IMG/VR virus record: IMGVR_UViG_3300034066_001836
Location: 1-27,447 of that record
From: a virus
Length of the DNA stretch: 27,447 nucleotides
Direction: 5' to 3' (one strand)
Part shown: positions 21,902 through 26,179 of the stretch, in pieces
How the letters are laid out: every line of letters starts with the position of its first letter
How positions within the stretch are numbered: position 1 is the first letter of the stretch
Program-made: the position numbers and the translations under genes
Notes under the pieces: generated by a model
What the model was told of the DNA's origin: nothing
Seen by the model: the letters and a program-made list of their open reading frames with translations, nothing else
Database searches by the model: none

Positions 21902-22246
21902 CTATCTCTTCTTTTGCTGCTTGACTAAAAGCTCGGCCCGCCTGCGCTCTCGGTCAGCCTTCCAGGAGGCGTCGGGGTCGTTTTGAGATGCGGTGGCTTG
22001 TGCCTTAGCGGTACTTGGGGTCACCGGCGATTGGGGCTTAGAGTCCTTTAGGCGGAGATATGCCGCATTTACCTGCTTCATTACTTCTGGGTTACCGGTA
22101 GCTGAATCGGGGTGAAACCGCTTGGCGGCTTTGTAATAAGCGGCCTTTAGGTCATTTGGAGAATATCCTACTGGCAAACCGAGGATCGAGCGGGCGTCGT
22201 CGTCGTTTAGGTTCTGCTCTATGAGGAACTCTTCAAAGGTAAGCAT
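21902..22246 (-). CDS. J-domain protein with capsid-targeting-type leader
   Basis: 114 residues from the ATG at 22246. Residues 1-10, MLTFEEFLIE, fit the T4 capsid-targeting pattern (IPIII: MKTYQEFIAE) including a gp21-type L-x-E cleavage site. Residues 15-70 form a J domain: ARSILGLPVGYSPNDLKAAY, then YKAAKRFHPDSATGNPEVMK with HPD at 45-47, and QVNAAYLRL. J domains stimulate DnaK ATPase. The tail is basic with Lys/Arg/Gln repeats, good for DNA-filled heads. TATAAATA ends 5 nt before the ATG; the longer upstream frame would contain the promoter, so it is rejected. Likely a late, possibly packaged protein that engages host DnaK. Divergent from the recombinase gene. Confidence 0.8.
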   Translation of the reverse strand: MLTFEEFLIEQNLNDDDARSILGLPVGYSPNDLKAAYYKAAKRFHPDSATGNPEVMKQVNAAYLRLKDSKPQSPVTPSTAKAQATASQNDPDASWKADRERRRAELLVKQQKKR

Positions 22247-22251
22247 ACCCC

Positions 22252-22259
22252 TATTTATA
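22252..22259 (-). promoter_or_regulatory. Perfect T4 late promoter TATAAATA abutting the J-domain start
   Basis: TATAAATA-GGGGT-ATG on the minus strand. With the T4 rule (core at -13 to -6) transcription would begin at the A of the start codon. Confidence 0.75.
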
Positions 22260-22333
22260 CCCATACACAGGACCGTGGGTGGGGACATAAAACCTACGGA
22301 AATCACTCACCCGACCGTACGCCTTAAAACAAC

Positions 22334-22351
22334 TATGTGAAAACTCACATA
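22334..22351. repeat. Inverted repeat upstream of the recombinase, candidate operator
   Basis: TATGTGA-AAAC-TCACATA is a perfect 7-bp dyad, about 20 bp upstream of the -35 box of the recombinase promoter, in the divergent region with the J-domain gene. Confidence 0.45.
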
Positions 22352-22371
22352 AAAAAAGTTCAATAAATTGT

Positions 22372-22401
22372 TTGAAGTCGGGCCGCCGCAAAAGGTACAA
22401 T
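22372..22401 (+). promoter_or_regulatory. Sigma70-like promoter of the recombinase
   Basis: TTGAAG (22372-22377), an 18-bp spacer and TACAAT (22396-22401), 29 nt before the ATG at 22431. Unlike its neighbours, this gene has no late core, so early host-type expression is likely. Confidence 0.55.
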
Positions 22402-22430
22402 TAGATCATTGGTTGTTAGAGAGAGGCAGT

Positions 22431-23003
22431 ATGAAGGGTTGCAGACCACTTTCCGAGAATGAGAAGACACAGGTTATCAATGCTATTACCGGTCGCCACC
22501 AGCTTCGCGATAAGCTCATTGTTATCTTCGGTATCTACGCGGGATTTCGAATCTCTGAAATCCTTTCCCTCAAGGTGCGAGATGTGTTCCAGAACGGCAT
22601 CGTCCCTAACCACGTAACCGTTCAGCGCAGAAATGTTAAAGGTAAGCGCGAGGGACGAACTGTAGTTCTTCACCAGTCTATTAAGGATGCGATTGTAGAG
22701 TACCTTCTCGCCAACCTTCACCTTTCCCCAGACTCAGAGCTTTTCATCAACCAAGCTGGCACAAAGGCTATTAGCCGCCAACAGGCTTGGAACATCGTGG
22801 AGGCTGCCTTTGCAGCGTGTGAACTCACTGGAACTCTTGGTACCCACTCTCTCCGTAAGACCTTTGCCCTTAACGCTTATCAGAAGTCTGGACACTGCCT
22901 TCTTAAGACAAAGAAGGCACTAGGACATACAGACATTCGAACCACAGAGAAGTACCTAAGCTTTGCCGAGAGCGAGGTTGACGAGCTGATCCTTAGCGCC
23001 TAG
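22431..23003 (+). CDS. Compact tyrosine recombinase/integrase
   Basis: 190 residues from ATG at 22431 (AGAGAGG upstream); the open frame begins at a TTG at 22368 overlapping the promoter. Catalytic residues of the tyrosine recombinase family are present: Arg40 (GFRISEIL), a Lys in NVKGKREGRTVVL, His139 and Arg142 (HSLRKT), His166 (LGHTDI) and Tyr175 (TTEKYLSF). Only the catalytic domain remains; the N-terminal core-binding and arm-binding domains of full integrases are missing. Possible roles are resolving genome multimers or inserting DNA elements; no att site could be identified. It sits between two late genes with leader peptides but has its own sigma70-like promoter. Confidence 0.85.
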   Translation: MKGCRPLSENEKTQVINAITGRHQLRDKLIVIFGIYAGFRISEILSLKVRDVFQNGIVPNHVTVQRRNVKGKREGRTVVLHQSIKDAIVEYLLANLHLSPDSELFINQAGTKAISRQQAWNIVEAAFAACELTGTLGTHSLRKTFALNAYQKSGHCLLKTKKALGHTDIRTTEKYLSFAESEVDELILSA

Positions 23004-23007
23004 GCGC
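22996..23007. repeat. 12-bp perfect palindrome over the recombinase stop codon
   Basis: GCGCCTAGGCGC reads the same on both strands and includes the TAG stop. It could be a recombinase-related site or chance. Confidence 0.3.
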
Positions 23008-23061
23008 CTTGAGTGTTTCATGTTTTAAGTTCTCCGGGGGCCAGTAAGCTACCTATTCCCT

Positions 23062-23069
23062 TATAAATA
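23062..23069 (+). promoter_or_regulatory. Perfect T4 late promoter TATAAATA abutting the nucleotidyltransferase-like start
   Basis: TATAAATA is followed by GGTGGGT and ATG (23077). The predicted transcript would start 2 nt before the ATG. Confidence 0.75.
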
Positions 23070-23076
23070 GGTGGGT

Positions 23077-23949
23077 ATGAAGACCTTCATGGAGTACATA
23101 TCCGAGTCCATAATAGACCCACACCATGACAGGTTAGCCTCGGCGGTATTCGAATCGGAATCCCCCGCCCGCCTTAAATCCATGGTAAGAGCCCAAATCC
23201 AGAGAGGAATACACCACATCGAAACCCATGCCGGAGTGCAGGTAGTTGACTATCGGTTAATAGGGAGCATCCTCACCCATCGCTACTCGAACGAGTCGGA
23301 CCTGGACATCAACGTCCTGATCCGAGGAGAGCTTAAGCACGCGGTAAAAGTGGTGTCTCAACTTAGCGGGAAACCTGTACCCGGCTCCCCCTATGTCGTG
23401 AATTTCCACGTACTGAACCAAAAAGAAGTCTGGAACGCAGCAAACGACGATGCCGATGGTGTGTTCAACGTTGAGGAGAACAAGTTTGAGCGGGTACCGA
23501 AAGACCTCCCATTTGACTTGTCGATGTATTGGAAAGATTTTACTAGAATCGCTAGTTCAATCGAGACCTTATCGAATCGACTAAAAGAGCAGGTTCTCGA
23601 CTACGACTCTCTAAGAAAGGCTAACCGCGACGAGCTAAAGCACCTTCGCACCCTCACAGTTCAAAAGCTTCGGGCGCTCAAGAAGACTGCCGCTTCCCTT
23701 GTAGACATCTATAAAATCATAAAGATTTATCGTGACAAGATATTTGCACACGAACTAACTCAGAAAGACATCATTCGCTACGGCGAAAAGAACCGTATGC
23801 CTGCGAATGTAATTTACAAGCTTCTTGAAAAGTACCACTACATGAAGCTCCTAGATTCAATTTCAAACATCATCGGACACGACGGCTCTTTGAGCGCAAA
23901 CGAAATACGGGAATTGCAGCAGATCTTTAAGCCAACGCAGCCTAAATAG
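23077..23949 (+). CDS. Nucleotidyltransferase-like protein with capsid-targeting-type leader
   Basis: 290 residues from ATG 23077; an in-frame GTG at 23071 would lie in the promoter spacer. Residues 1-10, MKTFMEYISE, closely match the T4 IPIII capsid-targeting leader MKTYQEFIAE, with a gp21-type I-x-E cleavage site. Residues 61-80 (RLIGSILTHRYSNESDLDIN) carry the nucleotidyltransferase pattern G-S...D-x-D, with Gly63-Ser64 and Asp75/Asp77 as metal ligands. The following VNFHVL strand (near 120) lacks an obvious third Asp. The C-terminal 150 residues are helical and basic (LKHLRTLTVQKLRALKKTAA; SLVDIYKIIKIYRDKI). Substrate unknown: it could modify a nucleotide, RNA, DNA or protein. Inferred: a packaged, injected enzyme. 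Confidence 0.75.
   Translation: MKTFMEYISESIIDPHHDRLASAVFESESPARLKSMVRAQIQRGIHHIETHAGVQVVDYRLIGSILTHRYSNESDLDINVLIRGELKHAVKVVSQLSGKPVPGSPYVVNFHVLNQKEVWNAANDDADGVFNVEENKFERVPKDLPFDLSMYWKDFTRIASSIETLSNRLKEQVLDYDSLRKANRDELKHLRTLTVQKLRALKKTAASLVDIYKIIKIYRDKIFAHELTQKDIIRYGEKNRMPANVIYKLLEKYHYMKLLDSISNIIGHDGSLSANEIRELQQIFKPTQPK
23941..23948 (+). promoter_or_regulatory. Late-promoter-like core (CCTAAATA) abutting the second zinc ribbon
   Basis: CCTAAATA-GTGGT-ATG overlaps the stop of the preceding gene and repeats the layout at 22246 and 23077, with 5 nt between core and ATG. Confidence 0.45.
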
Positions 23950-24505: not shown

Positions 24506-26179
24506 CTATACATAACCGCCTAGTGGAGTTGGAGTCCTTGTAGGTCTTACCGTAGGAGTCCGCGTAGGCGTGCGAGTTGGAGTCGCAGTGAATGTCGGCG
24601 TCGGGGTCCTTGTAGGTCTTACCGTAGGAGTCCGCGTAGGCGTGCGAGTTGGAGTCGCAGTGAATGTCGGCGTCGGGGTCCTTGTAGGCGTCCTAGTCGG
24701 TGTATATGTAAACGTTGGAGTCCTTGTAGACGTTGGAAGTGGGGTTTGTACAGTCGGAGCAGCAGTCACCGTTGGTAATGGAGTTAAGACCGGAGTCACC
24801 CCAGGAGCCGCAGTGGCAGTTGGTACTGGCGTAAGTATAGAGTCTTGCAGAGCCTCACAAATAGGCTTTGATGCCTCCACAGCAGCGTCCATATTCAATA
24901 GAGAACTTGTCTGCACCTTACCAGTAAGATCCGGGGTAAATGTACCATTATTCAGGATAATATCCTTCACCTGGGACTGGGTGAATAACCCACCACACAT
25001 GGCTTGTACAGCTACGACCACACCAGAGACATGAGGCGTCGCCATCGAAGTACCACTCATCCCAATATAGAACTTGTCCTTGTATGTGCTGATAACATTG
25101 GAGCCAGGTGCTGCAATATGAACAGTCTTTGCTCCAAAGTTTGAAAATGGAGATAGTTTACCCTGGCTTGTAACCGACGCAACCGAGATGATATTTCCGG
25201 TCTGGTATCCAGCCGGATATACAGCAAGCTTGTCGTTACTGTAAGATGCGTTTCCACTCGCAGCTACAAAAAGGATTCCAGCGTTACCAGCCTCTTTGAT
25301 TGCAGACGACAGCGAGGAACTGAAAGTATATCCTCCCCACGAATTGTTGCTAACTACCACCTTATGACCAGCCTTACGAAGTGCGGTACCGTAGTTGATG
25401 GCTTTTATTGCATTAGCAAGGCTCCCCCATCCATTTTTATCAAGAAACTTCGTAGCAACCAACTTTACATTCCACACCACACCAGGGATACCGATTGAAT
25501 TATTGCCCTTTGCTCCAATGATTCCAGCAACGTGCGTTCCATGCCCGTTATCGTCGAGGGGATCTCCTGAGTTCTTGATGGCGTTGTACCCGTATACGTC
25601 ATCGACTACTCCATTTCGATCATCGTCGATTCTGTTACCCGGCACCTCGTTTGGGTTCCTCCATACATTATCTGAGAGATCGGGATGGTTGTAAGAAATA
25701 CCCGTGTCTACCATCATCACTAGAAGGTCATTGCTCCCTTTGGTCTTGTCCCAAGCCTTCGGAGCATTGATCATGGCGGGAGCATAGAGCTGACTATACA
25801 GTTGATCATTGGGAACCTCAGACGCGGAGTATGCGAAATTGGGCTCGCACTTGACCCTTGAGCCAAGCTGAGACAAGGCTTTGCGAACCTTAGCAGTCTT
25901 GCAAGGATTGGTCTTGCGAGTCAGAGCTGCGGGCTTTTCCGCCCTCCCCATACCTAATGAGGCAACACCAGAAGACTTGGAATTGAAGAATAAAAGCTTG
26001 TCAGAGACTGATTCTACCTTGAAGCCTGTAGGTGAAGCAGACCTTACGGACATTACACTCTCCTTAGAGCTTGCGCGTGGTACCGTGATAATGGCTCCTG
26101 GATATACAAGCTTTTCAGCTCGCACCACAGACGCATAGACCAGAAATGGGAACACAACGGCAACAACAACTTTCTTCAT
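24506..26179 (-). CDS. Secreted subtilisin-like serine protease (S8) with Thr/Pro repeat tail
   Basis: 557 residues. Residues 1-21 are a signal peptide ([20 protein letters not shown], then A|EK). A propeptide-like stretch runs to about 125. The subtilase domain (about 130-440) has Asp158 in [16 protein letters not shown], His213 in NGHGTHVAG, oxyanion Asn310 in AASGN and Ser378 in [14 protein letters not shown], so all catalytic residues are present. From about 460 the tail is Thr/Pro/Arg-rich with [11 protein letters not shown] repeats, as in surface-exposed bacterial linkers. It would be exported from the host cell, which is unusual for a tailed-phage gene; it could act on host surface proteins, debris or neighbours. 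It looks like a bacterial gene acquired whole. Promoter not identified. Confidence 0.9.
24535..24678 (-). repeat. Two identical 72-nt tandem copies in the protease tail
   Basis: 24535-24606 and 24607-24678 appear identical base for base, and a third copy starts at 24679 before diverging. Each encodes 24 residues of the TPTRTPT-type tail. Identity at the DNA level points to recent duplication by slippage or recombination. Confidence 0.9.

Follow-up and report, generated by a model that had tools for sequence, protein, structure and literature searches.

Putative capsid-targeted internal proteins of a T4-like phage: a J-domain protein and a nucleotidyltransferase-fold protein with T4-type leaders

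Only a few internal proteins are known from T4, where they count as a textbook curiosity. In one of them, IPIII, the ten N-terminal residues suffice for packaging; mutations at residues 4 and 7 affect targeting and those at residues 8 and 10 affect processing, the two steps being separable, and the protease gp21 cleaves after [LI]xE (PMC9026906). IPI, IPII and IPIII are inhibitors of type IV restriction (PMC12373910). Alt of T4 is an ADP-ribosyltransferase. Among J-domain proteins, Rki (057w) of phage RB43 was the first functional one described from a phage; it acts on DnaK, stabilises sigma32 and is made early from an early promoter (PMC3486835). For nucleotidyltransferases of the pol-beta type, and also for GNATs, a role as effectors co-injected with DNA has been proposed in the polyvalent proteins of phages and conjugative elements (PMC5512222).

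Here we describe two genes that combine features of these systems. The window, the whole stretch of DNA analysed, is a 27,447-base IMG/VR fragment of a T4-like myovirus whose genes include gp17, gp18, gp32, gp59, gp2 and baseplate genes. It contained neither Rfam matches nor tRNAs, and megablast of the region against phage records gave no match. The features discussed below are as follows.

21902-22246 (-): J protein, 114 aa, ATG at 22246-22244, adjoining gp16/gp17
21902..22216 (-): predicted mature J protein, 104 aa, pI 9.8, J domain plus basic tail
22037..22189 (-): J domain (Pfam DnaJ), residues 20-70, with HPD as residues 45-47
22217..22246 (-): J leader MLTFEEFLIE, next residue Q; predicted gp21 cut after Glu10
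22252..22259 (-): TATAAATA, T4-type late promoter box of the J gene, its first base 13 bases before the ATG
22431..23003 (+): XerC/D-like tyrosine recombinase, lying between the J and NTase genes, syntenic, without a leader
23062..23069 (+): TATAAATA, T4-type late promoter box of the NTase gene, 15 bases upstream of the ATG
23077-23949 (+): nucleotidyltransferase (NTase)-type protein, 290 aa, ATG at 23077, past the tyrosine recombinase
23077..23106 (+): NTase leader MKTFMEYISE, next residue S; predicted gp21 cut after Glu10
23107..23949 (+): predicted mature NTase, 280 aa, pI 9.2
23263..23307 (+): GSILTHRYSNESDLD, GS...DxD active-site motif of the NTase, residues 63-77, from an alignment of 31 sequences

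Both proteins probably belong to the capsid-targeted internal proteins of this T4-like phage and are injected with the viral DNA; packaging, cleavage and injection are inferred from the T4 precedent. At the sequence level it is shown that each has a canonical leader and a late-promoter box, that the residues for targeting and cleavage are conserved and that a close relative has a gp21-type protease. The likeness to IPI-IPIII and Alt of T4 thus comprises a 10-residue leader with the mapped residues 4, 7, 8 and 10, the basic character of the proteins, the T4-type late promoter and, in the relative, the protease. The difference lies in the cargo, a J-domain cochaperone and an NTase-fold protein unrelated in sequence to IPI-III or Alt. 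Polyvalent proteins differ in being multidomain and occurring mostly in other phage types, whereas the window encodes separate single-domain proteins, each with its own T4-type leader.

A sequence-only reading of this DNA had claimed that both open reading frames begin with a leader of one motif ending at an [IL]-x-E site, that IPIII of T4 begins MKTYQEFIAE and that both proteins have basic regions. All of this held: the frames were confirmed, on opposite strands; IPIII and also IPII of T4 start with MKTYQEFIAE; and the computed pI of both mature proteins (9.8 for the J protein, 9.2 for the NTase) is high. At the positions mapped in T4 both leaders have an aromatic residue at 4 and 7, Ile or Leu at 8 (Ile in the NTase) and Glu at 10. 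Given the amino-acid composition, a start matches M-x-[TS]-[FY]-x-x-[FY]-[IL]-x-E with p = 7e-6, and two matches among about 40 genes have P ~4e-8. In 20 codon shuffles of the window, each with about 782 start-like codons, there were no matches, against exactly two in the real window, so that a chance origin of both leaders is all but excluded. As a control, the strict motif was found at the annotated starts of T4 only in ipII, ipIII and gene 61.1. Since ipI, which has a 19-residue propeptide, and Alt deviate from the strict motif, the leader test is specific, not complete. Gene 61.1 of T4 (L174:18966-19130, -), annotated as hypothetical, begins MKTFKEFIKE, a capsid-targeting leader.

A point missing from the sequence-only reading is that the only perfect TATAAATA boxes of the 27.4 kb window, exactly two, lie directly upstream of the two leader genes. 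The sequence NTAAATA is retained before the J and NTase genes in related contigs. By promoter match, with expression itself inferred, both are late genes, and from the usual late-promoter geometry their transcripts would begin within a few bases of the start codons.

The order gp16, J, recombinase, NTase is kept in contigs related at 91%, 82% and 75% in TerL, in which the J proteins are 52-71% and the NTases 58-79% identical to those of the window. The recombinase (22431-23003, +), a lone catalytic domain that is 70-86% identical in relatives of the clade, is an odd gene for a T4-like phage. The window also carries, at 24506-26179 (-), a subtilase (Peptidase_S8) that has an apparent signal peptide and whose C-terminus is a PT-rich repeat. 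The J leaders of the four lineages read MLTFEEFLIE, MLTFDEFLLE, MLNFAEFLLE and MLTFEEYLIE, the NTase leaders MKTFMEYISE, MKTYLEFISE, MLTFLDYLAE and (V)KTFLEYLQE. All eight have F or Y at positions 4 and 7, I or L at 8 and E at 10; positions 5 and 9 are variable. These are genuine leaders, and they are under selection.

The sequence-only reading had pointed to a gp21 protease and further leaders in the rest of the genome as checks. Gp21 is absent from the window, itself a fragment, and so are additional leaders. In the 145-kb relative with 91% TerL relatedness (G001) a gp21-type protease was identified (PF03420, E = 3e-35), and a second relative (G002) has one too. [IL]xE sites occur in G001 near the start of gp21 (LLQE) and of gp22 (LLRE) and within gp23 (FITE). 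Besides the J and NTase genes, G001 has three further leader genes:

L051:160-1200: 346-aa J protein, leader MKTFQEYLNE
GNAT-like protein (Pfam score below cut-off), leader MKTFLQFIVE
unidentified protein, leader MKSFERFIEE

A third J-like reading frame of G001 (L052:286-534, -) has no leader and has HPN in place of HPD.

It might be argued that the proteins reach the core through their leaders and stay uncut by gp21 after Glu10, so that they are carried at full length. Two observations could favour this: residue 11 of the J protein, following the cut site, varies among the four lineages (Q, Q, S and K), residues that gp21 would have to accept; moreover, targeting of IPIII is separable from its processing (PMC9026906). 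Against it, residues 8 and 10, which determine processing, are always [IL] and E throughout the clade, and E10 is present in 31 of 31 NTases. We regard uncut carriage as very unlikely.

The NTase family, for which at least 440 viral loci were found, provides a view of the leader over a greater distance. In 70 of 86 relatives inspected, a short leader of loose pattern (hydrophobic positions, then Glu) directly precedes S[IV][ILV]D. Within the family the leaders vary, the E|S[IV][ILV]D that they run into is invariant, and two leaderless homologues start with M-SIIDIPR exactly at the junction. The NTase leader is therefore a module ending where gp21 should cut. In the AlphaFold model residues 1-13 have a pLDDT below 50, the leader being unstructured.

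A second alternative is that the resemblance to a leader reflects an intrinsic N-terminal helix, or mere coincidence, without any role in packaging. It draws support from the conservation of E10-S11-x-x-D14, which extends past the leader and is found in the NTase family even in homologues with a short leader or none. The evidence against it is that the motif is common to two unrelated folds (P ~4e-8) whose genes share the same late promoter, that leaderless NTase homologues begin at the junction, and that the motif stands on many unrelated proteins in T4-like phages. This alternative, too, we consider very improbable.

Both proteins had been credited with enzyme-type domains. For the J protein this was confirmed by Pfam (DnaJ, PF00226; E = 1.4e-9, 38.3 bits, cut-off 27.8) and by HPD, which is invariant across nine J homologues. 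For the NTase it held only in part. G63, S64, D75 and D77 are invariant in the 31 sequences, but the third acidic position is Asn109, an Asn in 30 of the 31 sequences and Asp in one. The protein therefore has an NTase fold, with catalysis uncertain, and 'enzyme' is a weaker description than had been stated. Alone, it matched Pfam Polbeta only weakly (16.9 bits, cut-off 26.9); its homologue in contig L012 exceeded the cut-off for NTP_transf_2 (25.2 bits vs 21). The AlphaFold core (residues 20-140) is confident, with a pLDDT of ~87-97, and matches nucleotidyltransferases. The best structural matches in the PDB were AadA, AAD(9) and the minimal NTase HI0073, with E >= 1.3e-3 and none below 0.001; those in BFVD, with E as low as 1e-10, were mostly uncharacterised phage proteins. 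Both structure models leave the helical C-terminal half unresolved and of low confidence. HEPN (AbiU2) was considered as an identification and rejected, as it scored 20 bits against a Pfam cut-off of 26.8 and the C-terminal half is unresolved. A PDB sequence search with the NTase profile returned just one chance coiled-coil-like match, PADLOC gave weak NTase-like matches only, and tblastn of the NTase against phage isolates found no match. The most plausible role is that of an injected nucleotide-handling effector whose substrate is unidentified, injection and nucleotide transfer both being inferred.

In bacterial and archaeal genomes the NTase was found on two MAG contigs only; it is therefore not a host-derived gene family. 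On many marine contigs it forms one domain of a longer protein, mostly of ~650-1,036 aa, and such fusions contain, where tested, an additional cytidylyltransferase-like domain. The longest of these sizes is that of a kinase-NTase-cytidylyltransferase fusion of 1,036 aa (L021:1841-4951, +) with the leader MKDFKTYLQE. P-loop kinases and adenylate kinases near marine NTases bear leaders of their own (MKDFKTYLQE|GVYDPGIFKAFF and MKRFKSYIKE|EIPG), while an adenylate kinase on another contig has none. An assignment of the C-terminal part of a marine fusion to DUF6267 proved wrong; this region consists of the cytidylyltransferase-like domain and DUF5824, and DUF6267 is encoded by a gene neighbouring the fusion. 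DUF6267-type proteins (L117:5478-6548, -; L012:3465-4721, +; L009:2714-3934, +) have a KWDG motif as in ATP-dependent ligases and capping enzymes, and the one on L117 carries a canonical capsid leader.

The domain fused behind window-type NTases in marine phages belongs to the same family as T4-GC190 of phage S-SM1. This cytidylyltransferase (SSM1_190) starts MKKFSAFLNE|A; no other annotated gene of S-SM1 has such a leader. Mass spectrometry of purified virions detected the protein (PMC3037559). It resembles the window NTase as a leader-bearing nucleotidyltransferase-type enzyme of a T4-like phage and differs in having a cytidylyltransferase-like rather than a pol-beta fold; the window NTase, moreover, stands alone. 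By analogy, SSM1_190 is the closest experimental support for packaging of the window proteins.

For the J protein a single-sequence search of viral_contigs gave no match. In cultured T4-like phages that infect Aeromonas, Vibrio and Variovorax, J homologues begin with leader-like sequences (MSKTFSELFE, MKSTKQFLME, MNRYESYLRE); Aeromonas avDM6, Vibrio vB_VmeM-32 and Variovorax V45v66 are among the cultured phages that encode a leader-type J protein. The homologue of Pantoea phage Phynn is leaderless, and J function is therefore not always dependent on packaging. Compared with the Aeromonas phage 65 p124/CC2_351 family (phrog_13942; J domain plus ~250 aa), the window protein shares the HPD J domain and the leader-like N-termini seen in several members; it is, however, a short form consisting of the J domain and a basic tail, and the long form is encoded separately in G001. 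With Rki it has in common that it is a small J-domain protein of a T4-like phage and is expected to engage host DnaK. The two differ in timing: Rki is early and its presence in virions has not been reported, whereas the window protein does not meet the criterion of a Rki-like early promoter, having a late-promoter box instead, and with its capsid leader would arrive preformed. Engagement of host DnaK at time zero is the most likely function of the J protein; both that engagement and stimulation of the ATPase are inferred.

Leaders of this kind are not confined to the present lineage. A scan of IMG/VR for MKT[FY]xE[FY][ILMF]xE returned at least 120 stretches, where about three were expected by our own estimate. 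By BLAST, 85 leader reading frames (81 of them of at least 50 aa) fell into 36 families, including PHROGs called 'internal head protein' and 'internal virion protein', a SAM lyase and HAD-like phosphatases (Pfam below cut-off). A late-promoter box preceded 46 of 65 leader genes, vs 138 of 640 neighbouring genes (Fisher p = 2e-15). One SAM lyase family protein (L076:4557-5096, -; PF23780, E 7.5e-16) has a capsid leader and a late-promoter box, and several similar proteins occur, e.g. on L073, L075 and L118; this suggests injected SAM-degrading anti-restriction. On another contig (L084:2357-3913, +) four leader genes lie in tandem, each starting MKTFKEY(L/I)xE, with differing bodies, one of them HAD-like.

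The mechanism we propose follows T4. Both proteins would be synthesised late and docked by their leaders in a gp22-type prohead core, where gp21 would cleave after Glu10 to give new N-termini at Gln11 (J protein) and Ser11 (NTase). The basic mature proteins would remain with the DNA and be ejected together at the next infection. In its first moments, before phage transcription, the J protein would engage host DnaK via the HPD J domain, diverting it by analogy with RB43 Rki, and might also help to refold proteins that have come through the tail tube in unfolded form. The NTase would act in the same moments as a nucleotidyl-transferring or nucleotide-binding effector. That the proteins are packaged, cleaved and injected, as the sequence-only reading had it, is largely supported, every testable prediction at the sequence level having turned out as expected; packaging, E10 cleavage and injection nevertheless remain inference, as do a DnaK-engaging factor and a nucleotide-transferring effector at the onset of infection. 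The injection reading is limited by the lack of proteomics from this lineage and of an identified host.

A further alternative is that the proteins are prohead-core assembly factors, targeted and cut but working in head building (for example, the J protein bringing DnaK to the folding of gp23 or gp22), with delivery incidental or absent. T4 core proteins and IPIII do influence head morphogenesis (PMC9026906), and DnaJ-type proteins of jumbo phages have been predicted to assist folding and assembly (PMC7824862). On the other hand, the genes lie among accessory genes beside a recombinase, outside the head cluster; the NTase family has a patchy occurrence, with fusions to unrelated enzymes of metabolic type; and the leader-bearing internal proteins of T4 are ejected with the DNA, IP1-3 blocking host defences (PMC12373910). 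An assembly role is therefore unlikely, and we retain injection as the preferred reading.

A bolder reading, which is possible but no more than that, is that aquatic T4-like phages hold a general kit of capsid-delivered enzymes in which one interchangeable 10-residue leader may be placed on almost any protein. The kit might comprise nucleotidyltransferases, P-loop and adenylate kinases, cytidylyltransferases, HAD phosphatases, SAM lyases and GNATs, and the leader-tagged J protein would recruit DnaK to refold cargo threaded through the tail tube, yielding working enzymes before phage gene expression.

Delivery of this kind is an established mechanism; the cargo, to judge from the literature searched, is new. 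Leader, late promoter and [IL]xE site together make a simple sequence test by which injected cargo is predicted in T4-like phages, both cultured and uncultured. Among the predictions are a cochaperone of DnaK and nucleotide-handling enzymes that current annotations list as 'hypothetical' or as auxiliary metabolic genes. The new N-termini that are predicted can be looked for in virion mass-spectrometry data that already exist. If the prediction is true, part of the apparent metabolic reprogramming in infection would act from the virion at time zero.
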